From Prosopocoilus inquinatus (taxonomy: Eukaryota; Arthropoda; Insecta; Coleoptera; Lucanidae): a stretch of DNA of 64,000 nt. The stretch lies in NCBI GenBank assembly GCA_036172665.1, contig CM069878.1, positions 22,144,501 through 22,208,500 of the forward strand, written 5' to 3'. Position 1 is the stretch's first letter; each line of letters begins with the position of its first letter. A model generated the notes under the pieces. It had not been told where the DNA came from and ran no database searches. It saw nothing but the letters and a program-made list of their open reading frames with translations. Of this stretch, positions 3,484 to 55,553 are shown piece by piece. The position numbers and the translations under genes are program-made.

Positions 3484-3639
3484 ATTTAAATTCCCAAGCA
3501 AGTAATTACTTTTTTAATGAAAAAATAAATAATTATCCTCTGTTTGCTGGAGACGATACTTTTAACGGAATACTCAGTCTTGCTTTGGTCGAGCTGGCAA
3601 TAGTGGCAGTGGGAGTTTTCAAAAATATAACCATAAAAT

Positions 3640-3840
3640 TAATGAACATATAAAATAGCGACATCTTACTATCGCTTTTTGACCTAACATTGCAGTAGGA
3701 TAGACAAATTGAAGCGGGATTTGCTCCTAATGAGTCCCCCATGCAAGGCGGCCATGCTTGCTGTCAAAGCATAATGAAAGATTTTAGAAAAATTTTGTGC
3801 AAATCGTTTTTGATTGCAGTGAGAACCTCGAGCAGCCTCT
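3640..3840 (-). mobile_element. Hammerhead repeat, inverted partial unit
   Basis: About 200 bp of the 312-bp unit in reverse orientation. It meets the forward array head to head at about 3840. The inverted copy starts, on its own strand, about 4 nt before the ribozyme cleavage position (CTGTC then CAGAGG), so it lacks the catalytic core. Confidence 0.85.
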
Positions 3841-4101
3841 GGACAGCTGCTCGAGGTTCTCACTGCAATCAAAAACGATTTGCACAAAATTTTTCTAAAA
3901 TCTTTCATTATGCTTTGACAGCAAGCATGGCCGCCTTGCATGGGGGACTCATCAGGAGCAAATCCCGCTTCAATTTGTCTATCCTACTGCAATGTTAGGT
4001 CAAACAGCGATAGTAAGATGTCGCTATTTTATATGTTCATCATTCTTACATCGCATTTGCGAATAAATTGGGCAAGTCGTTTTTGGTCTGCAGTGGGAAT
4101 G

Positions 4102-4167
4102 TCGAACTACGTTTCTGCTGAAGAAGCCTCAAGCAGGGCTGAAACAGCTGTCCAGAGGCTGCTCGAG
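4102..4167 (+). ncRNA. Hammerhead ribozyme, array unit 1
   Basis: Core CTGAAGA at 4118-4124, stem II AGCCT/GGGCT with loop CAAGCA (last pair U-G), GAAAC at 4141-4145, palindromic stem III ACAGCTGT, triplet GTC with predicted cleavage between 4152 and 4153. In stem I, GTTTCTG pairs with CAGAGGC, and outer arm TCGAAC pairs with GCTCGA with one mismatch. Type I topology, stem I open to the flanks. Confidence 0.88.
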
Positions 4168-4413
4168 GTTCTCACTGCAATCAAAAACGATTTGCACAAA
4201 ATTTTTCTAAAATCTTTAATTATGCTTTGACAGCAAGCATGGCCGCCTTGCATGGGGGACTCATTAGGAGCAAATCCCGCTTCAATTTGTCTATCCTACT
4301 GCAATGTTAGGTCAAAAAGCGATAGTAAGATGTCGCTATTTTATATGTTCATCATTCTTACATCGCATTTGCGAATAAATTGGACAAGTCGTTTTTGGTC
4401 TGCAGTGGGAATG

Positions 4414-4479
4414 TCGAGCTACGTTTCTGCTGAAGAAGCCCCAAGCAGGGCTGAAACAGCTGTCCAGAGGCTGCTCGAG
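4414..4479 (+). ncRNA. Hammerhead ribozyme, array unit 2
   Basis: Consensus copy. CTGAAGA at 4430-4436, stem II AGCCC/GGGCT, loop CAAGCA, GAAAC, stem III ACA-GC-TGT, GTC triplet with predicted cleavage between 4464 and 4465. Outer stem I TCGAGC/GCTCGA is fully paired, separated from the inner GTTTCTG/CAGAGGC helix by a small internal loop. Confidence 0.9.
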
Positions 4480-4725
4480 GTTCTCACTGCAATCAAAAAC
4501 GATTTGCACAAAATTTTTCTAAAATCTTTCATTATGCTTTGACAGCAAGCATGGCCGCCTTGCATGGGGGACTCATTAGGAGCAAATCCCGCTTCAATTT
4601 GTCTATCCTACTGCAATGTTAGGTCAAAAAGCGATAGTAAGATGTCGCTATTTTATATGTTCATCAGTCTTACATCGCATTTGCGAATAAATTGGGCAAG
4701 TCGTTTTTGGTCTGCAGTGGGAATG

Positions 4726-4791
4726 TCGAGCTACGTTTCTGCTGAAGAAGCCCCAAGCAGGGCTGAAACAGCTGTCCAGAGGCTGCTCGAG
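4726..4791 (+). ncRNA. Hammerhead ribozyme, array unit 3
   Basis: Same sequence as unit 2 through the whole motif. Predicted cleavage lies between 4776 and 4777, so successive cuts would release 312-nt monomers. Confidence 0.9.
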
Positions 4792-5037
4792 GTTCTCACT
4801 GCAATCAAAAACGATTTGCACAAAATTTTTCTAAAATCTTTCATTATGCTTTGACAGCAAGCATGGCCGCCTTGCATGGGGGACTCATTAGGAGCAAATC
4901 CCGCTTCAATTTGTCTATCCTACTGCAATGTTAGGTCAAAAAGCGATAGTAAGATGTCGCTATTTTATATGTTCATCAGTCTTACATCGCATTTGCGAAT
5001 AAATTGGGCAAGTCGTTTTTGGTCTGCAGTGGGAATG

Positions 5038-5103
5038 TCGAGCTACGTTTCTGCTGAAGAAGCCCCAAGCAGGGCTGAAACAGCTGTCCAGAGGCTGCTC
5101 GAG
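5038..5103 (+). ncRNA. Hammerhead ribozyme, array unit 4
   Basis: Same sequence as unit 2 through the motif, with all core residues and stems intact. Predicted cleavage is between 5088 and 5089. Confidence 0.9.
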
Positions 5104-5349
5104 GTTCTCACTGCAATCAAAAACGATTTGCACAAAATTTTTCAAAAATCTTTCATTATGCTTTGACAGCAAGCATGGCCGCCTTGCATGGGGGACTCAT
5201 TAGGAGCAAATCCCGCTTCAATTTGTCTATCCTACTGCAATGTTAGGTCAAAAAGCGATAGTAAGATGTCGCTATTTTATATGTTCATCATTCTTACATC
5301 GCATTTGCGAATAAATTGGGCAAGTCGTTTTTGGTCTGCAGTGGGAATG

Positions 5350-5415
5350 TCGAGCTACGTTTCTGCTGAAGAAGCCCCAAGCAGAGCTGAAACAGCTGTC
5401 CAGAGGCTGCTCGAG
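5350..5415 (+). ncRNA. Hammerhead ribozyme, array unit 5 (stem II mismatch)
   Basis: Core residues are intact but stem II is AGCCC/GAGCT, giving one C-A mismatch in the middle of the helix. Predicted cleavage is between 5400 and 5401. The unit is cut short downstream by an A-run. Confidence 0.8.
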
Positions 5416-5654
5416 GTTCTCACTGCAATCAAAAACGATTTTCACAAAAAAAAAAAAAAATTTTTCTAAAATTTTTCATAAAATTAATAATGTTCGTCAA
5501 ACAATTTTTTTGACGTCTATAGGCGTTTTCGTAAATTGAACCGTGTTGGTCGGGTCAGGTTTGACAGATTAATGTGATATTCCGAACCGGGCGACATCAG
5601 ATCGGAACATTTACGAACGCAAAGAGCAGAAATATTTATTGGTTTGACAAAACC

Positions 5655-6122
5655 TTTAACATATAAAATAGCGACATCTTACTATCGCTTTTTGACCTAA
5701 CATTGCAGTAGGATAGACAAATTGAAGCGGGATTTGCTCCTAATGAGTCCCCCATGCAAGGCGGTCATGCTTGCTGTCAAAGCATAATGAAAGATTTTAG
5801 AAAAATTTTGTGCAAATCGTTTTTGATTGCAGTGAGAACCTCGAGCAGCCTCTGGACAGCTGTTTCAGCCCTGCTTGGGGCTTCTTCAGCAGAAACGTAG
5901 CTCGACATTCCCACTGCAGACCAAAAACGACTTGCCCAATTTATTCGCAAATGCGATGTAAGAATGATGAACATATAAAATAGCGACATCTTACTATCGC
6001 TTTTTGACCTAACATTGCAGTAGGATAGACAAATTGAAGCGGGATTTGCTCCTAATGAGTCCCCCATGCAAGGCGGTCATGCTTGCTGTCAAAGCATAAT
6101 GAAAGATTTTAGAAAAATTTTG
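5655..6122 (-). mobile_element. Hammerhead repeat, 1.5 units reversed
   Basis: One full unit and a partial one in reverse orientation, same subfamily as the main array. It meets a forward block head to head at about 6123, where the reversed copy stops at the GCACAAAATTTTT region of the unit. Confidence 0.85.
5841..5905 (-). ncRNA. Hammerhead ribozyme, reversed unit
   Basis: On the minus strand all parts match the consensus: CTGAAGA (5889 to 5883), stem II AGCCC/GGGCT, GAAAC (5866 to 5862), stem III ACAGCTGT, GTC and CAGAGG. Predicted cleavage is between 5855 and 5854. Confidence 0.88.
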
Positions 6123-6202
6123 TGCTATTTTATATGTTCATCATTCTTACATCGCATTTGCGAATAAATTGGGCAAGTCGTTTTTGGTCTGCAGTGGGAA
6201 TG

Positions 6203-6268
6203 TCGAGCTACGTTTCTGCTGAAGAAGCCCCAAGCAGGGCTGAAACAGCTGTCCAGAGGCTGCTCGAG
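6203..6268 (+). ncRNA. Hammerhead ribozyme, forward copy
   Basis: Consensus motif with all stems and core residues. Predicted cleavage is between 6253 and 6254. Confidence 0.9.
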
Positions 6269-6514
6269 GTTCTCACTGCAATCAAAAACGATTTGCACAA
6301 AATTTTTCTAAAATCTTTCATTATGCTTTGACAGCAAGCATGACCGCCTTGCATGGGGGACTCATTAGGAGCAAATCCCGCTTCAATTTGTCTATCCTAC
6401 TGCAATGTTAGGTCAAAAAGCGATAGTAAGATGTCGCTATTTTATATGTTCATCATTCTTACATCGCATTTGCGAATAAATTGGGCAAGTCGTTTTTGGT
6501 ATGCAGTGGGAATG

Positions 6515-6580
6515 TCGAGCTACGTTTCTGCTGAAGAAGCCCCAAGCAGGGCTGAAACAGCTGTCCAGAGGCTGCTCGAG
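6515..6580 (+). ncRNA. Hammerhead ribozyme, last copy of the block
   Basis: Consensus motif. Predicted cleavage is between 6565 and 6566. One substitution upstream of the motif does not touch a stem. Confidence 0.9.
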
Positions 6581-7048
6581 GTTCTCACTGCAATCAAAAA
6601 CGATTTGCACAAAATTTTTCTAAAAACCTTTAACGTTTAGCATAAATTGAATCCTTATTAGCACGTTATGAAAGAGAAAACTAAAAGAAAAATTGCTGCA
6701 GCCACTGTTTTATGTTTCCAATTAAGTTATGTATATAATTACACTTAAATATCTGGTTCTTATTTACCTTCAACGTTTTGTTTTATTAGATTTCGTAATT
6801 ATTGGAGCAGTAGCAAAATCTTCAGTTGTGGAAATACCTAGATTAAAACCAACATAATTAACATAACCACAACTCCACAACATAACCCGCCCAACCCTAC
6901 TCAGCTAGTAGGGTTACTTCAGTAGCAACCTGGTTTGCAAACCTAGTGTTTTTACGAACACTTTCGTGTTTGCTACCCGAATAAACGAACGCGTATTTCT
7001 CTAACCCGGTACCAACCCATTTAACCTGGTTGAATTTACGAAAACGCC

Positions 7049-11624: not shown

Positions 11625-11710
11625 AGCCTGTATAGTGGCTGCCCGAGGGATTCACTGCAAACACAAACGATTTGCAACGAAATTTTTCAAGAATTTTCAG
11701 TTTTCAAAAC
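11625..11710 (+). mobile_element. Hammerhead repeat, 3' fragment
   Basis: About 70 bp (GTGGCTGCCCGAGGGATTCA and onward to GATTTGCAACGAAATTTTTC) match the part of the 312-bp unit just downstream of the cleavage site, with about 15-20% divergence. The catalytic core is absent. The fragment begins within a few bases of the cleavage position. Confidence 0.65.
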
Positions 11711-16516: not shown

Positions 16517-16815
16517 ACGGCCATTTTCATAATAAGACTTTACGGAAGGTTTCATTTAGTCACTTTCAGTATAGGAAAACGAATGTATTTTCTTAATTGA
16601 AGTTTGTTCTTGTCCGATAAAAATAGTAAGTACAAAGTTTTTTTAATCTCAAACCGGACAGAAAAATGAAGGGAACACACTCAACGTTTCGCTATAGATT
16701 TACAGCTTCGTCAGGAGCTATAAATCTATAGCGAAATGTTGAGTGTGACTTTATACTTAGTATTTTTTTAGGTTAAAGTAACTTTTAATTTAAAGTCTGA
16801 TTATGAAAACGGCCC
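16517..16815. mobile_element. MITE family B copy with an insertion
   Basis: Ends ACGGCCATTTTCATAATAAG and AGTCTGATTATGAAAACGGC then CC are inverted. The uninterrupted relative lies at 59850-59970. Here the middle is split by a 168-bp hairpin element (16592-16759). Confidence 0.75.
16592..16759 (-). mobile_element. Snap-back hairpin element (family G) inside MITE B
   Basis: Flanked by a 7-bp direct repeat GTATTTT (16585 and 16760). The core is an inverted repeat of about 31-bp arms around the loop TTCGTCAGGA at 16708-16717. The arm text CACTCAACGTTTCGC and the outer CCGGACAGAAA and TTGTCCGAT recur at 46370-46640, so this is a family. On the minus strand the sequence contains CTGACGA and GAAAC in hammerhead order. 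Confidence 0.65.
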
Positions 16816-16977
16816 TAAAACCAATAAACAATCACTTCCTTAACCTTTCACCGAAAAACTGTATTTGAAGTCGACTCTTATCCGTTGAAATATGTGAGAA
16901 AATAGTATTTTATCTTTAACGGACACTGTAAAATTGGAATAAACGTCTCTCTATCGCCTGATAGCTTTGTCAAGCGA

Positions 16978-17110
16978 ACATCCTCTGTACAGCTGCGTCA
17001 GCCCTATTTAGGGCCTCGTCAGCAGAAGCGCAGCTCGAAATTTCCACTGCAAACCGAATCTACTTGTTCAAGGATACTCGCACAAGCGACGTAAAAGTAA
17101 TGAAAAGCAA
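16978..17110 (-). mobile_element. Old hammerhead repeat relic with decayed ribozyme
   Basis: The minus strand reads as a diverged unit: TTCGAGCTGCGCTTCTG, CTGACGA (core with N7 = C), stem II GGCCC/GGGCT with loop TAAATA, then GACGC where GAAAC is required, then AGCTGTA and CAGAGG. Stem II still pairs although its loop has changed completely. The A14 and A15.1 positions are lost, so it should be inactive. The rest matches the upstream part of the unit to about 17110. Confidence 0.75.
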
Positions 17111-17427: not shown

Positions 17428-17680
17428 AAAGTTTAGGCAGCGACATCCTGTGATCGCTTTTTGACCTAACAGTGCATTAGGATGGACAAATTGTAACCAT
17501 TCCCATACAAGGTGACCATGCTTTGACTGCACGCATTTTTTTTTAAACTTTCATCATGCTTTGACAGCACGTATGGCCGCCTTTATGGGATAACTTATTG
17601 TGTAGTAAACTGGCTTCAATTTGTCAATCCTAATGCGATGTCAGATCAAAAAGCAATCGTAGAATGTCGCTACTTAAGGC
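17428..17680. mobile_element. Head-to-head hammerhead repeat fragments
   Basis: A reversed piece (AGCGACATCCTGTGATCGCT onward, 17428-17535) abuts a forward piece (17540-17680, ending AGAATGTCGCTA). Both cover only the non-ribozyme half of the unit. This is the same inverted arrangement as at 3840 and 6123. Confidence 0.75.
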
Positions 17681-21342: not shown

Positions 21343-22584
21343 GGATGGCATTTATTCAAAAGCCGAAGAAATACAATGGATGAAAATGGGACTCACCAAA
21401 AAACACAAGGAAGCTCACATATTTTCTTTTAAATTAGCAAAGACGTCAGTTAATGTTAAAGTTCACTCCGGATTTAATGGGAGCATTATATGGCTGCCAA
21501 ATTTTCGTTTAACGCTCCAGTTTATTACACTTGCTGCCGATATTAAATTTGAGAAAGACAACTGGCAAGGATTTCAAAACGCTAATCCTCCGCCAGTTAT
21601 CTCGCAGAAAGATCGCACGAACTTTCACGTGCTTACGATGTTAAACATTATAATGTTAATCTAGTGCTACTTAACGACACCGTGACGTAAACCGCCAGAA
21701 ATTTTTACAAACAATAAACTAAAATTAGAATTTCGTTGGTTGCGATGCAAAAAAAAAACACAGAGCTGAATTAATTGCATAACAGAAAACGAAATAAGAG
21801 TATGTTTTTCCAGAATAGGATGCTTCCTTTATGTAGTGATCAAAACGTGAAATATTAAAAATATTGTAAAGATAATTCACTGAAAATATTGTAAATTTTT
21901 CATATTGTCTAGCAAAGACTTCAAAGACATGTATGAAGAAAAAACCTTATAGGTATTACGCCTATGTTCAAAAGATGTTACCCATATTTTTTTTTTGTTT
22001 ACAATTTAGAATTTACTTCCCTAAATTTTGTTTTTCTTAAACTTTCGTTGCTGCAAAAATTATTATTATTAAGATTACAAAGAAATGAATTGGTAATACG
22101 AACGATGGAACAAAACAGGGAAAAATGTGACAGCAAAATAAAAACAAGATAATTCCAACGAAAAATAAGAAAAGGATTTCCAAAAGTAAGAGAAATTTAA
22201 AGATTTTAGGGTGGAAATGAATGAGATTTAATGACGAAGAAAATGTACAATCCACTAACAATAGACCATTATAACCGAATGTTCCATCATAATAGAAATG
22301 AAAACAAATTTTAAAATCGTAGTTAAGCCATCCCGAACTGCGGGAAATATCCTACATCATCTTTCCGAATTCTTCCTCTTTTATTTTGAGCATAGGCCCA
22401 GTAATTAGAAAATTATTAGCTCTTTTCTGCAGAAACCAGATAACTAGGATGTGATGAAACCCACAATTCTTCTTCCTTTTAACCGAGCATTTTACAAGTA
22501 TTTCGACCTTGAAAATAGTTCGTTATAACAGTTTCCATTATAAGTGAGTTCATTAGTGCTTCGTATGTATAAAAATAGTGAACA
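21343..22584. other. Gene-free stretch
   Basis: A 94-codon frame at 21380-21664 begins MKMGLTKKHKEAHIFSF but shows no domain; chance is likely. The remainder is AT-rich single-copy sequence. Confidence 0.4.
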
Positions 22585-22735
22585 GTATAAACAGCGACAT
22601 CCTACAATCGCTTTTTGACCTAACATTGCAGTAGAATAGACAAAGTGAAGCCAATTTACTACATAATAAGTCATCCCATACAAGGCGGCCATGTTTGCTG
22701 TCAGAACATAATGAAAGTTAAAAAAAAAAATGATT
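22585..22735 (-). mobile_element. Hammerhead repeat fragment, reversed
   Basis: Matches the non-ribozyme half of the unit (AGCGACATCCTACAATCGCT to GTTTGCTGTCAGAACATAAT) with scattered substitutions. A 178-codon minus-strand open frame (22492-23028) runs through it by chance; the repeat, not a protein, explains the sequence. Confidence 0.75.
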
Positions 22736-32926: not shown

Positions 32927-34404
32927 CTAGATATTCGTAGCGTTAATATATTCGTCGAAACTGTAAAAGCTATTACAAATTAAATATGATTTTAGTTCAT
33001 TAAAATATTTGTTATTAGTAATATTTTTAAGGCGGGCGGGTAGGGCATTATGCCAAAATTACGTTATGTACCTTACCTTTCGGAATGGATAAATTATTCT
33101 TGTAGCACGTTATCATACTTGACGATACATCACAATTCCTTCTACAGTAATTACTAAGAATAGGATCTGAATAAGTTCCCGCCATCATTTGAGTAGCGCC
33201 GTAAAAATGTATTGAACAGGCACATTGTGTAATGGGAAGGCGAAAATAATTTACGGCGTTTTTACTACATGATGCAATGTCGCCATATATTCCGGCGGTC
33301 GAGATACAACTGGTCAACTAATTACTCTGAAAATCTTTACACATTTAAACAAGAGTTGATTTTGCATAACTAATTTTTTGTTGAGGCAATATTGCTCTGT
33401 TTTTTGTTATACTGAGTAACACCATTGCTGTAGCGGCGTTAGTTGTCTCCGCAGTCCTCGCGTTTGTTTACACGCTGCGGTCTAATATCTTATATTGCCC
33501 ACTTCATTAGAATTTGAACCGCGCAAAATATATTTCCCCGGCCCATAGTTATTACTGTGTTTCCGATAAAATACTAGCAATTTATATACAAATAGACAAG
33601 GAGCAGTCGTGATTTTTAACTGTTTGAAATAATCTCTGCAACTTGTACGAGAAGGTAATTTCAACATACATCTTATTATTCGTTTTTGCATTATAAAGGC
33701 TTTTTATGAGTCTGCGGAAGATCCCTAGAAGGTGATTCCCTAGGTCAAGTGACTTTGAACAGTTTACTGCAAACATTGTTAATATGATGCTCCCATTTCA
33801 ACAAATTGTCTACCTCTACACCTAGAAATTTTACGAATTCCTCGTCCTTAATTGATTTACCATATATTTTAATATAAACAGATTCAAGTTGTGGTAGCTT
33901 AGTTATGAAATATAATAAGCTCATTTTTTGGGCATTTATGTGTAATGAATTTAATCTACACCAATTAGTCATTTTATTTATAATCTCGTTTGCCTTCGAC
34001 GATAAACTGGCAACGTCATATTCACTAATAATGCACGAGGTGTCGTCGGAAAACTGGTATAATGATTTTTTCCTGATATGATGAGGCAAATCATTTACGT
34101 AAATAAGAAAAAGTGTGGGGCCTAATATTGAGCCCTGCGGAATTCAGTGGATGATTTCAACAGACTCAGACAGAATTTCTCTATTTACATTGTCAGTCAC
34201 GTTATTAATACTAACTTTCTGTGTCCGTTCTGTTAAATAAGATTTGCACAACTGTAATGCTCTACCACGGATACCATACTGGGACATTTTATCTAGTAAT
34301 ATTTTGTGATTTATGGTACCGAAAGCCTTCGATAAATCAAAATTAATTCCAACGACTTTTTTTTTGAAATTTTTCATAATATAAGATAAAGAATCATGAA
34401 TTGG
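32927..34404 (-). pseudogene. Non-LTR retrotransposon reverse transcriptase relic 1
   Basis: Minus-strand order: VVGINFDLSKAFGTINHKIL (RT palm, first Asp, near 34350), YGIRG, a premature TGA at 34144-34146, PQGSILGPTLFLIYVND (about 34137-34085), FSDDT (the catalytic box, YADD in relatives, near 34050), GVEVDNLLKWEHHI (thumb), QKRIIRCMLKLPSRTSCRDY, then about 430 bp I cannot read as RT (33050-33480, probably an insertion), then the C-terminal tail YNALPARLKN-like stretch and FYSFDEYINATNI with a stop at 32927-32929. Typical of Jockey/CR1-like ORF2 C-terminal halves. 5' truncated by a hammerhead-repeat fragment at 34404. Several frameshifts. Confidence 0.85.
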
Positions 34405-34550
34405 TCCCCCATGCAAGGCGGCCATGCTTGCTGTCAAAGCATAATGAAAGATTTAGAAAAATGTTGTGCAAATCGTTTTTTCAGCTGTCCAGAGGCTGCT
34501 CGAGGTTCTCACTGCAATCAAAAACGATTTGCACAACATTTTTCGGAAAA
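34404..34550. mobile_element. Hammerhead repeat fragments, inverted, at the RT break
   Basis: A reversed piece (CCCCCATGCAAGGCGGCCAT to TGTGCAAATCGTTTTTT, 34408-34479) joins a forward piece that starts CAGCTGTCCAGAGGCTGCTC (34482) and runs to TTGCACAACATTTTT. The forward piece begins at the palindromic stem III, 7 nt before the cleavage site, so it lacks the core. Translation across the left junction creates a chimeric open frame fused to the RT. Confidence 0.8.
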
Positions 34551-37472: not shown

Positions 37473-38740
37473 CAGTATCGGACAAAAGTATCGATCGATT
37501 TCATTTTAATATATTTATTATCTATTTTGCCAAAGCAAATTTATCTAAAGAATTTTGAATACAAATACACAAACTGTTATATAAGCTTTTGTTTGATATT
37601 TTGATTGAAAACATTTTTTTAAATCTTTTACTTGTGAAAAAAGTTAAGCAACAAAATTTCTAGTTGGCTGTAGAACAAGGTACTAACAAGAACAGCAATT
37701 ATAAATAATAGTACACGATTAAATACCGTTAGTTACTAATGCGCATGCCGAAGTCTGGTACACCTCGAAAAACTTCGAAATATTTGGACAGATGCATCGA
37801 AAGGATCTCCCAAAGCGATCCCTGGAAATCTGCCTCAAGAATAAAGGTGAAATTCTTGATTTATATCTAAGTACTCGAAGCGTACAGCGAAGACTTGTTG
37901 AAGCAAACCTGCTTGGAAGACGCCCAGCCAAGAAACCACTTATTTCTAAAAAAATCAAGTCTCAATATTAGAGTTTGCAAGGGTGCATGTTCAGTGGACT
38001 CGCGAAGACTGGTATAAAGTTTTATTCAGTGATGAAACAAAGTACAGTATGTTTAAGTCTGATGGAACACGTTGGATAAGACGTTCTAAAAATGAAAGAT
38101 TTATTTCCAAGTACACAGTACCCACTCTTAGGCACGGTGGAGGAAGTGTTATATTGTGGAATTATTTTTCAAAACGTGGAGTAGGACCGTTACATTTCAT
38201 AAAAGATAACATGGATCTATTCTATTATAGGGACATTTTAAGGGAAACAATGTCGTTAAGATTCATATTTCAACAAGATAATGACCCTAAACATTCCTCA
38301 CAACTCGTAAAAGAATGGTTTCAGGAAAATAAAATTCGGATTATGAAGTGGCCGTCGCAATCTCCATATCTGAGTTCCATAGAGCATCTATGGGAGGAAA
38401 TAGAGAGACGAATTAGAACCCAACACTGTACTAACAAACAAGAATTCGAAATTAGAATACGAAGAGTGGGAAGAAACGCCTCAAAACGTTATCGACAATT
38501 TAATATAGTCCGTCCAGAAAATATCGGGAAAAAACAAATAACTCCGCAACTTCCAGTTCTTGAATTTATGAATGAAACAGTTCAAATAGAGAAAGAAAAC
38601 AGTTTCAGTTAGTTGTTTACGTAATTTCCGTTTAATCCTACAAATTATACTGAACGTTCGCAAAACTTGAAATCAAATCATTATAACCTGAGTATAGCTG
38701 GTACTAGAACTGTCCATAAACTGATACTATTATTTTATTT
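37473..38740 (+). mobile_element. Tc1-like transposon, 3' end not found
   Basis: The left end follows a TA: CAGTATCGGACAAAAGTATC (37473), a typical Tc1-type terminus. The matching right terminus was not found before the RT sequence resumes near 39083, so the 3' end is deleted or too diverged; 38740 is an approximate limit. The element lies inside a reverse transcriptase relic. Confidence 0.7.
37739..38612 (+). pseudogene. Tc1-like transposase, frameshifted
   Basis: The N-terminal part MRMPKSGTPRKTSKYLDRCI (ATG at 37739) includes the GRPRKT-like hook. A frameshift near 37850 leads to STRSVQRRLVEANLLGRRPA, the second helix-turn-helix end, and a stop and frameshift near 37968 lead to the long open part (37983-38612, 209 codons). 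That part carries DDE_3-type catalysis: FSDET (first D), QQDNDPKH (second D) and SSIEHLWEE (E). The spacing between second D and E is 34 residues, the DD34E signature of Tc1. SPYLSS replaces the usual SPDLNP, but the catalytic triad is intact. The first helix-turn-helix appears missing. Two frameshifts mean it is inactive as it stands, though it is the least decayed transposase here. Confidence 0.9.
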
Positions 38741-53775: not shown

Positions 53776-54531
53776 TATATAAAATAGTACGGATCCCGAC
53801 CATTGGATCGCAATGCCTTATTTTAATAAAAATCTTTTATAGAGGTTGTTAAAAAATTGGTTTGCCAAATTTCTACGGCAAGTAAAGGAGGCCAACATAA
53901 GATTTTTTTTTATTATATAACATGGGGTCGGAAATTAATAATTACTTTTTAAGACTGTAAAAATGACTTAATATTGCAGAATATTGAAGAAATTATTAAC
54001 GTGCCAGAACGAGGTAATTAAATTAATAAAATTTTTATTGTACAGGGTGTCGTGAAAATTCTTGGGATTTATTTACAAATAATTTTTTGATGTTTTTTGA
54101 GAATTTTAAATTCTAAAAACTGGTAAAAGTGTTGAATTTTCCGTCAAATATTAATCTAGAATATATTACTTCAATTCTTTGTTTATTTTGAGCTAAGGGA
54201 ACTGTAAATCATCAAAATAAGCATAAGATAGGAATGAAGATGATCGACATTGTTCGGGATAAATTGAAGAACTTACTCTCGAAAGCAAAACATGGTGGAC
54301 AAAAACAATTTGCTGCAATTATTCTTTCTCGAAATGGTATCGATAAAGGATGACTCTACAGACAACATTTAAAAAAAATGAAAGATTTCAGATTTGACAA
54401 ACAAATTTAAGGCTTCGATAAAATTTATTCGTCTTGAATCAATAAAAAGAAAATATTTTAATAAAAAAATTGAAAAATGTTGTGCAATTGCGAATAAATT
54501 GGACAAGTCGTTTTTGTTTGCAGTGGGAATG

Positions 54532-54597
54532 TCGAGCTACGTATCTGCTGAAGAAGTCCCAAGCAGGGCTGAAACAGCTGTACAGAGGCTGCTCGAG
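54532..54597 (+). ncRNA. Hammerhead ribozyme, variant subfamily copy 1
   Basis: CTGAAGA (54548-54554), stem II AGTCC/GGGCT with a U-G pair and loop CAAGCA, GAAAC (54571-54575), stem III ACAGCTGT, triplet GTA instead of GTC, predicted cleavage between 54582 and 54583. Stem I GTATCTG/CAGAGGC has one A-G mismatch; outer TCGAGC/GCTCGA is intact. GUA is a permitted NUH triplet. Confidence 0.82.
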
Positions 54598-54838
54598 GGT
54601 TTCACTGCAATCAAAAACGATTTGCACAAAATTTTTTAAAAACTTGCATTATGCTTTAAGAGCAAGCATGGCCGCCTTGCATGGGGGACTTATTAGGAGC
54701 AAATCCCGCTTCAATTTGTTTATCCTACTGCAATGTCAGGTTGAATCAATAAAAAGCAAATATTTTAATAAAAAAATTGAAAAATGTTGTGCAATTGCGA
54801 ATAAATTGGACAAGTCGTTTTTGTTTGCAGTGGGAATG

Positions 54839-54904
54839 TCGAGCTACGTATCTGCTGAAGAAGTCCCAAGCAGGGCTGAAACAGCTGTACAGAGGCTGCT
54901 CGAG
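54839..54904 (+). ncRNA. Hammerhead ribozyme, variant subfamily copy 2
   Basis: Same sequence as the copy 307 bp upstream. Predicted cleavage is between 54889 and 54890. Cleavage at both would release a 307-nt RNA that includes flanking sequence. Confidence 0.82.
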
Positions 54905-55553
54905 GGTTTCACTGCAATCAAAAACGATTTGCACAAAATTTTTTAAAAACTTGCATTATGCTTTAAGAGCAAGCATGGCCGCCTTGCATGGGGGACTTAT
55001 TAGGAGCAAATCCCGCTTCAATTTGTTTATCCTACTGCAATGTCAGGTCAAAAAGCGATCGTAAGATGTCGCTATTTTATCTATTCAAAAAAATTAAAGT
55101 AAATTAATTAAAAATCGCCACATGAAGGTGAAAATAAAAGTTTGTTCGTGATATGCTTTGAAATTAATCTTTACTAGGCTCACTGGATTATGGGGCTCAC
55201 TCCGCGTTGTTTCTGCAACATTAAGTAGAATTGTGACACATTGTGTGTGAATTGAACAAACACATTCTACATTAATATTTGATGGAAAATTCAATACTAT
55301 TACTACTAGTTTTTAGAATTTAAAATCCTCAAGAAACATTAAAAAATTATGTGTAAACAAAAATCCCGGACACGCTGTACAATAAAAATTTTATTCATTT
55401 AATTACCTCGTTTTGGTATCAATTATGGTATCATTTTTACAGTCTTACAAAGTAACTATTCATTTCCGACCCCATGTTATATAACAAAAAAGTCTTATTT
55501 TGGCCTCCTTTGCTTGCCCTAAAAGTTTGGCAAGCGAATTTTTCAACACCCTG

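Follow-up and report, generated by a model that had tools for sequence, protein, structure and literature searches.

A 64,000-nucleotide stretch of the genome of the beetle Prosopocoilus inquinatus (assembly GCA_036172665.1, contig CM069878.1, positions 22,144,501 to 22,208,500 of the forward strand; hereafter the window) contains 312-bp repeats that carry a type I hammerhead ribozyme. These repeats very probably belong to a non-coding animal retrozyme of the kind without long terminal repeats (non-LTR), moved by Penelope-type machinery via two-ended priming on circular RNA. At the level of sequence, the element displays a type I hammerhead, copies dispersed through the genome, target-site duplications mostly of 11–14 bp, head-to-head insertions whose outer ends lie at two sites (A and B), and a close parallel in PLE1, a Penelope-like family of the same genome.

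Anatomy of the Insertions

The repeats at 3841–6625 had been described as a tandem array of 312-bp units. Tandem repetition was recovered by Tandem Repeats Finder (TRF) on the 64-kb window (period 312, 5.1 copies, 98% matches at 3846–5449), but the region consists of two head-to-head insertions rather than one plain array; each has a 12-bp target duplication and opens with an inverted piece. Insertion 1 (3644–5476) is bounded by CATAAAATTAAT repeats (3632–3643 and 5477–5488), and insertion 2 (5661–6622) by AAAACCTTTAAC repeats (5649–5660 and 6623–6634). In both cases the 12-bp match is exact, as in 1 of 5000 random zone pairs, and the insertions and their duplications are separated by non-repeat DNA at 5489–5648. 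GC content across 4001–6000 is 42%.

Unit positions are numbered from u1, the first base 3′ of the hammerhead cut; site A is defined as u185–212 (about u198) and site B as u45–80 (about u60). In insertion 1, a minus-strand piece (3644–3841, from BLAST with the unit) has its outer end at u208, in site A, and is followed by plus-strand tandem units (3846–5476; TRF, BLAST) ending near u60–68, in site B. In insertion 2, the minus-strand piece (5661–6124; BLAST and the hammerhead model described below) has its outer end at u197, in site A, and contains an antisense hammerhead; the plus units (6124–6622; BLAST) end near u60, in site B. Thus, in both insertions the inverted piece has its outer end near u200 and the plus units finish near u60.

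The same plan recurs across the genome. The unit has at least 124 matches there; the best 40 of 176 candidates were scored and 30 loci fetched, and all copy numbers are lower bounds. In these 30 loci, 31 of the 32 complete clusters (a count that omits clusters running off the locus or shorter than 150 bp) are head-to-head, with both outer ends on the RNA-3′ side. By outer ends, these 31 divide into 23 A+B, 5 B+B and 3 B+other, the last including L004, although its second piece gives an A end and a 12-bp duplication. Target duplications reach at least 9 bp in 20 of the 23 A+B loci and measure 11–14 bp in 17 of them, whereas only 14 of 506 crossed-zone control pairs reach at least 9 bp and 2 reach at least 11 bp. 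Three A+B loci (L012, L015, L020) have no duplication of at least 9 bp. A plain tandem satellite is ruled out by the dispersal of the copies and their duplications.

None of the five B+B loci has a target duplication. In three of these inserts the same flanking DNA recurs on the two sides in inverted orientation (L002/L040, 372 bp, 100% identical; L005/L041, 103 bp, 98%; L006/L039, 898 bp, 96%), and in L040 the left flank seems to have served as template for the second complementary DNA (cDNA). The other two, L013 and L025, have neither duplication nor inverted flank.

The duplicated DNA is 83% A+T (20 loci), compared with 65% in the loci. Among 36 half-sites from 18 insertions (3 of 21, with duplications shorter than 11 bp, were omitted), C lies immediately outside in 18 (p = 5e-6), and A precedes it in 24 (p = 3e-5), at positions picked post hoc. 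A symmetric AAC/GTT-like frame with a spacing of about 12 bp is what a dimer cutting both strands would leave. Older retrozyme families elsewhere in the genome (L043–L054) share a 3′ motif, CTGCAATCGAAACTNACTTGCAACTA, which occurs with two or fewer mismatches at 188 forward and 189 reverse places (377; control, 0).

The Hammerhead Ribozyme

Hammerhead cores occur in the window on the plus strand at 4118, 4430, 4742, 5054, 5366, 6219 and 6531, and on the minus strand at 5862–5889. A loose core pattern matches the window 11 times, where 0.40 matches would be expected, and a stricter descriptor requiring three stems finds 7 window sites and none in 300 dinucleotide shuffles. The loose-pattern match at 16686–16714 was rejected as a chance match inside a palindrome, namely a palindromic element at 16640–16760 that resembles a miniature inverted-repeat transposable element (MITE). 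The preliminary description had every full unit carrying the same motif, which holds for five of the seven plus units, where stem II is exactly AGCCC/GGGCT. In the unit at 4118, stem II reads AGCCT (a U–G pair) and one distal pair of stem I is broken, and in that at 5366, stem II reads GAGCT (a C–A mismatch). Helix III consists of two pairs and an AGCU loop; invertebrate retrozymes are likewise reported to have two pairs plus a tetraloop there (PMC7229834).

A covariance model, R1, was built from the window hammerheads and related copies and is not independent of them. It scores 89.3 bits at 4416–4477, 4728–4789, 5040–5101, 6205–6266 and 6517–6578 on the plus strand (predicted cuts before 4465, 4777, 5089, 6254 and 6566, respectively) and at 5842–5903 on the minus strand, within the inverted piece of insertion 2. 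The two deviating plus-strand units score 81.8 bits (4104–4165, predicted cut before 4153) and 83.8 bits (5352–5413, single stem II mismatch). The Rfam model RF00163, which the preliminary description had named for a search, matches 4424–4470, but with only 23.8 bits (E = 4.6e-4 in a 116-base scan), under its cut-off of 34. When the whole window or 3.3 kb was scanned, no RF00163 match was listed, probably owing to speed filters. Across the genome, where the best 74 of 83,220 candidates were scored, RF00163 has 8 matches, 7 of them above the cut-off; two of these matches (L035 and L036) sit in one duplicated 3-kb stretch.

The fold was examined in an alignment of 25 hammerheads from the window and the loci, 24 taken from the search and one (L033) placed by hand; hits numbered 97 (53 distinct), and 29 were omitted as chimeric, cut-off, false or near-repeats of those kept. 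Standard pairs fill 91% of the pair cells, and both sides have changed at 9 of 18 pairs, which 4 of 500 shuffles match. The covariation score exceeds all 500 shuffles and all slides, in an alignment where a misplaced core gap in five old copies flatters one pair. Judged on the aligned sequences, covariation demonstrates the hammerhead fold. Together, the cores, the descriptor, the covariation and the genome-wide RF00163 matches bear out the original claim of a type I hammerhead in 312-bp units. In viral contigs, a set that may omit records near this genome, a 40-base hammerhead pattern had no matches.

Because 312 equals 3 × 104, there is a reading frame interrupted by just one stop in each unit (103 aa; for example 4231–4539, and likewise in other full units). 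A coding role for this frame was rejected, there being no candidate homologue and no Pfam match. The retrozyme unit codes for nothing recognized, and so is without a reverse transcriptase (RT) and a GIY-YIG endonuclease of its own. The sequence supports the retrozyme-like element with a 312-nt non-coding monomer that had been proposed.

Folded as a circle, the 312-nt unit has a predicted energy of −112.1 kcal/mol, compared with a shuffle mean of −75.7 (SD 4.6; none of 100 as low) and −85.5 for the antisense circle. The predicted circle has two arms, one a long rod tipped by the hammerhead and the other a second set of hairpins. The 307-nt unit of a third insertion in the window (see below) gives only −87.7 kcal/mol as a circle, a value without shuffle control.

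The Template for Reverse Transcription

The lengths and inner ends of the cDNAs point to a circular template. Of 36 cDNAs started at B, 34 are longer than 75 bp and so crossed the hammerhead cut site, whereas a B start on a hammerhead-cut linear monomer would yield a cDNA of about 60 nt. Overall, cDNA lengths span 26 to 1634 bp, whole-circle lengths included, and 33 of 63 cDNAs are longer than one unit. Inner ends fall at u60–68, just short of the B start, in 12 of 63 (p = 2e-7 versus uniform, with the range picked post hoc). Nine of the 36 B-started cDNAs stop at u60–68 after whole rounds, eight after one round (306–323 bp) and one, L026, after two (623 bp); the positions of these stops fit a template in the form of a circle, where the enzyme would come back to the point at which it began. 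The inner ends of L003, L014 and L025 score at the cut site, but their upstream letters are present, and they are taken as broken BLAST chains.

Substitutions shared among passes also bear on the template. The change 90G>A is present in all three passes of insertion 2 and in none of insertion 1, and L029 has no differences over 594 compared sites. Identical passes as proof of a single template were nevertheless judged not decisive.

Penelope-like Elements of the Same Genome

A genome search for GIY-YIG domains, in which the best 150 of 2232 candidates were scored (130 tie at 33.4 bits; frames reach 788 aa), revealed that 47 of 48 neighbouring GIY-YIG pairs within 12 kb are in −/+ order (head-to-head, endonuclease outward); the remaining pair is −/−. 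In PLE1 (represented by L074), RVT_1 (7.5e-14) and GIY-YIG (6.9e-7) lie within one 601-aa open stretch, and P0002, which is 59% identical to the PLE1 protein, also has both domains. The same domains occur in database proteins related to PLE1; named among the 120 matches listed are the beetles Tribolium, Aromia and Molorchus, mosquitoes and a springtail, which does no more than hint at an insect host.

At 11 of 17 PLE1 loci, the ends lie at q2005–2009 and q2045–2048, with duplications of 11–15 bp; the PLE1 duplications are 78% A+T. This count takes loci with the second side in view and does not include L062, L063, L068, L070, L072, L073 and L074, which run off. Nine of the 11 fitting loci (L075–L083) were chosen from −/+ pairs and are head-to-head by selection; their ends and duplications are not. 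A rare class with the same site at both ends and an inverted flank occurs in both elements (L002, L005 and L006 of the retrozyme; L066 of PLE1). The retrozyme and PLE1 therefore share an inverted plan, two different start sites, a duplication length and a rare by-product.

An older second Penelope-like family, PLE2 (L057, L059, L060, L065; copies about 90–97% alike), has a 3′ untranslated region (UTR) that is collinear with u124–u218 of the retrozyme unit, spanning site A. Its score of 46.8 compares with a shuffle mean of 21.9 and maximum of 42.0 (0 of 1000 as high), 21.8 for the antisense strand and 27.1 for a piece of the PLE2 open reading frame; the comparison was prompted by a prior weak BLAST match and used lenient gap costs. 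By this collinearity around site A, the retrozyme looks partly derived from a Penelope 3′ UTR. Some PLE2 copies have hammerhead-like letters in their 3′ region, for which RF00163, tested on L057, has no match. Core-like letters seen by eye at L074:1927 in PLE1 likewise have no RF00163 match.

Retro-insertion with mobilization in trans, as first proposed, is supported by the sequence, and the kind of mobilizer can now be named: it is likely to be Penelope-like machinery. PLE1 or one of its relatives is the probable mover of the retrozyme. A fresh head-to-head retrozyme copy (L056:2006–2467) is a few hundred bases away from another type of GIY-YIG exon, SLX1-like.

Proposed Mechanism and Its Alternatives

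From these features we infer self-cleavage, a circular template, a dimeric enzyme and the Penelope family involved, as follows. Retrozyme repeats would be transcribed, and the hammerhead would free 312-nt monomers, which a host ligase would circularize into rod-like molecules. At an AT-rich target, a Penelope-like protein with RT and GIY-YIG domains, probably dimeric, would cut the two strands at positions about 12 nt from each other. The two 3′ ends of the target would then each prime reverse transcription at an internal start site of its own on the same circle, one at A and the other at B. The strand started at B would cross the cut site, make at least one round and often halt at its own start, and joining of the two cDNAs would account for the inversion, the tandem units and the duplicated target. 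Extended to animal retrozymes in general, it is reasonably likely that they parasitize Penelope-like machinery in this manner: the ribozyme circle would be two-armed, with one start site per arm and one per dimer subunit, and primed from both target ends.

Several observations weigh against this scheme. The fetched retrozyme loci are a ranked sample. Repeated passes in one insertion show no greater similarity than those of the nearest other locus (mean 0.033 versus 0.027; lower in 10 of 29). The best predicted fold pairs core GCUG with CAGC, replacing helix III; for the motif alone, this blocking fold has −24.2 kcal/mol versus −18.2 for the hammerhead (6.0 better), and the circle has −112.1 versus −107.2 with the core kept free (4.9 better); tertiary contacts do not enter these energies. 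Folding of the motif by itself gains only mildly over shuffles, with z = −2.3 and 4 of 200 shuffles doing as well. The blocking fold, as modelled, could mean that the ribozyme is blocked within the circle or that it is weak. A ribozyme blocked in this way is described for plant circles by the authors of PMC7229834.

On the Penelope side, 6 of the 17 PLE1 loci do not fit the two-start plan: in L066 both ends lie at one site and the 30 bases outward of each are identical, which constitutes an inverted flank; L055 has ends at q2046 and q2018 without duplication; the second piece ends at q744 in L058 and at q961 in L069; and no second piece is seen in L061 and L071. PLE1 and the unit have no significant homology (22.1 versus a shuffle mean of 20.2), and the preference for C at −1 of the target is not significant in PLE1 either (6 of 22, p = 0.15), compared with 18 of 36 in the retrozyme. 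Inserts of PLE2 seemingly end in (TA)n about 430 nt past the stop, not at the stretch that resembles site A. Sequence comparison thus points to no one Penelope partner, since PLE1 shows no significant homology and PLE2 seems to end elsewhere.

The same retrozyme and Penelope-type machinery might instead use a linear, uncut multimer as template, with the u60–68 stops caused by protein bound at the next site B. The differences among passes within an insertion, which are as large as those from other loci, and the fold that blocks the hammerhead core would both suit such a template, and the Anolis Penelope element uses unprocessed RNA in vitro (PMC11167929). A linear multimer gives no clear reason, however, why the enzyme should pass one occupied site B and stop at the next, as the nine whole-round stops, including the two rounds of L026, would require. 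The presence of 90G>A in every pass of insertion 2 and its absence from insertion 1, together with the identity of L029 throughout its compared sites, also argue against this template, which we regard as rather unlikely.

That machinery of the long interspersed nuclear element (LINE) type produced the insertions by ordinary twin priming is highly improbable. Human L1 twin priming also yields head-to-head copies, and LINE-like RT fragments are present in the window. Against this stand the near-universal inversion (31/32), the fixed internal sites at both ends, the lack of a poly-A tail at the insertion ends inspected, and the same plan in a Penelope family of the same genome (47 of 48 pairs; two start sites at 11 of 17 loci). 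Least credible of all is that a hammerhead came by chance to lie in a DNA transposon of the fold-back or MITE type or in a satellite. Inverted ends with target duplications do resemble terminal inverted repeats, and the units are tandem, but ends A and B differ in sequence in 23 of the 31 head-to-head clusters (5 are B+B), the cDNA lengths vary over the range given above with whole-circle lengths among them, and the covariation acts at the RNA level.

Other Copies and Repeats in the Window

Insertion 3 has the plan of insertions 1 and 2 in reversed order, with the B end first. It occupies 54472–55086 on the plus strand, where a 16-bp inverted site-B end (identified by eye, with one mismatch to the unit) is followed by plus units running to site A, and R1 detects hammerheads at 54534–54595 and 54841–54902 on the plus strand. 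Its 9-bp target duplication, AAAAAAATT, lies at 54463–54471 on the left (found by eye; of low complexity and without control) and at 55087–55095 on the right (letters checked). A 307-bp tandem period at 54434–55048 includes the left flank, which indicates that insertion 3 was duplicated as DNA after inserting.

Older remnants were located with BLAST: a head-to-head copy at 17439–17675 whose two outer ends, u185 and u189, fall close to site A; a lone inverted piece on the minus strand at 22570–22726, ending at site A; and a plus-strand fragment at 11628–11697 with a site-B end. BLAST also located a short fold-back copy at 34404–34544 (u108 to u31 inverted, then u305 to u55) with one site-B end; it lies inside a LINE-like RT gene, and one expected end is missing. 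R1 finds an old degraded hammerhead at 16975–17036 on the minus strand (67.8 bits), in which GAAAC is replaced by GACGC. Separately, a Tc1/mariner-like transposase remnant occupies 37723–38609 (HTH_Tnp_Tc3_2 below and DDE_3 above cut-off).

Comparison with Known Systems

Which machinery moves animal retrozymes is a question to which an insertion anatomy common to the retrozyme and a young Penelope-like family gives a direct answer. The anatomy further suggests that the circle does serve as a template and that, in Penelope-type insertion, the two target ends use different start sites. Mapping of insertion ends offers a test for any retrozyme-bearing genome.

Animal retrozymes with type I hammerheads are tandem repeats that produce circular RNAs, and Penelope-like elements are suspected as their movers (PMC7229834). 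According to a 2020 review, animal retrozymes carry no motif from which their autonomous mover could be told (PMC7761336). As described in the main text of Cervera and de la Pena (2020; PMC7229834), animal non-LTR retrozymes resemble the present element in their type I hammerhead with a two-pair helix III and tetraloop, in tandem units of 150–450 bp with low GC (<50%) and duplications longer than 4 bp, and in a circular form predicted to be highly self-paired. They are described there as tandem, whereas nearly all copies examined here are head-to-head with two fixed start sites, and their expression, cleavage and circles have been demonstrated, whereas for the present retrozyme they are predicted. 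We found no description of an inverted two-site architecture for retrozymes in the main text of that paper or in the portions of other retrozyme and Penelope literature that were covered. Tandem hammerhead repeats also make up Dolichopoda pDo500, described as a satellite, and the amphibian hammerhead satellites (via PMC7229834).

Penelope-like elements offer the closer parallel for insertion. The purified Anolis protein (Poseidon), for which a dimer is the proposed model, cleaves both strands and extends them, and it begins copying within the RNA, at a position lacking homology to the target (PMC11167929). In Adineta vaga, Penelope inserts with inverted pseudo-LTRs and an optional one-sided tail are known from the relevant part of PMC3846280. 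As far as these sources describe them, such elements share with the retrozyme, as reconstructed here, the inverted copies, the optional one-sided tail, reverse transcription that begins within the RNA, two strands that are both cut and extended, and AT-rich targets (PMC11167929; PMC3846280). Unlike the retrozyme, the Anolis and A. vaga elements, as described in those sources, encode an RT and a GIY-YIG endonuclease. Their duplications also differ in length, being 8–10 bp or absent in the A. vaga inserts covered in that part of PMC3846280, whereas those of the retrozyme are mostly 11–14 bp.

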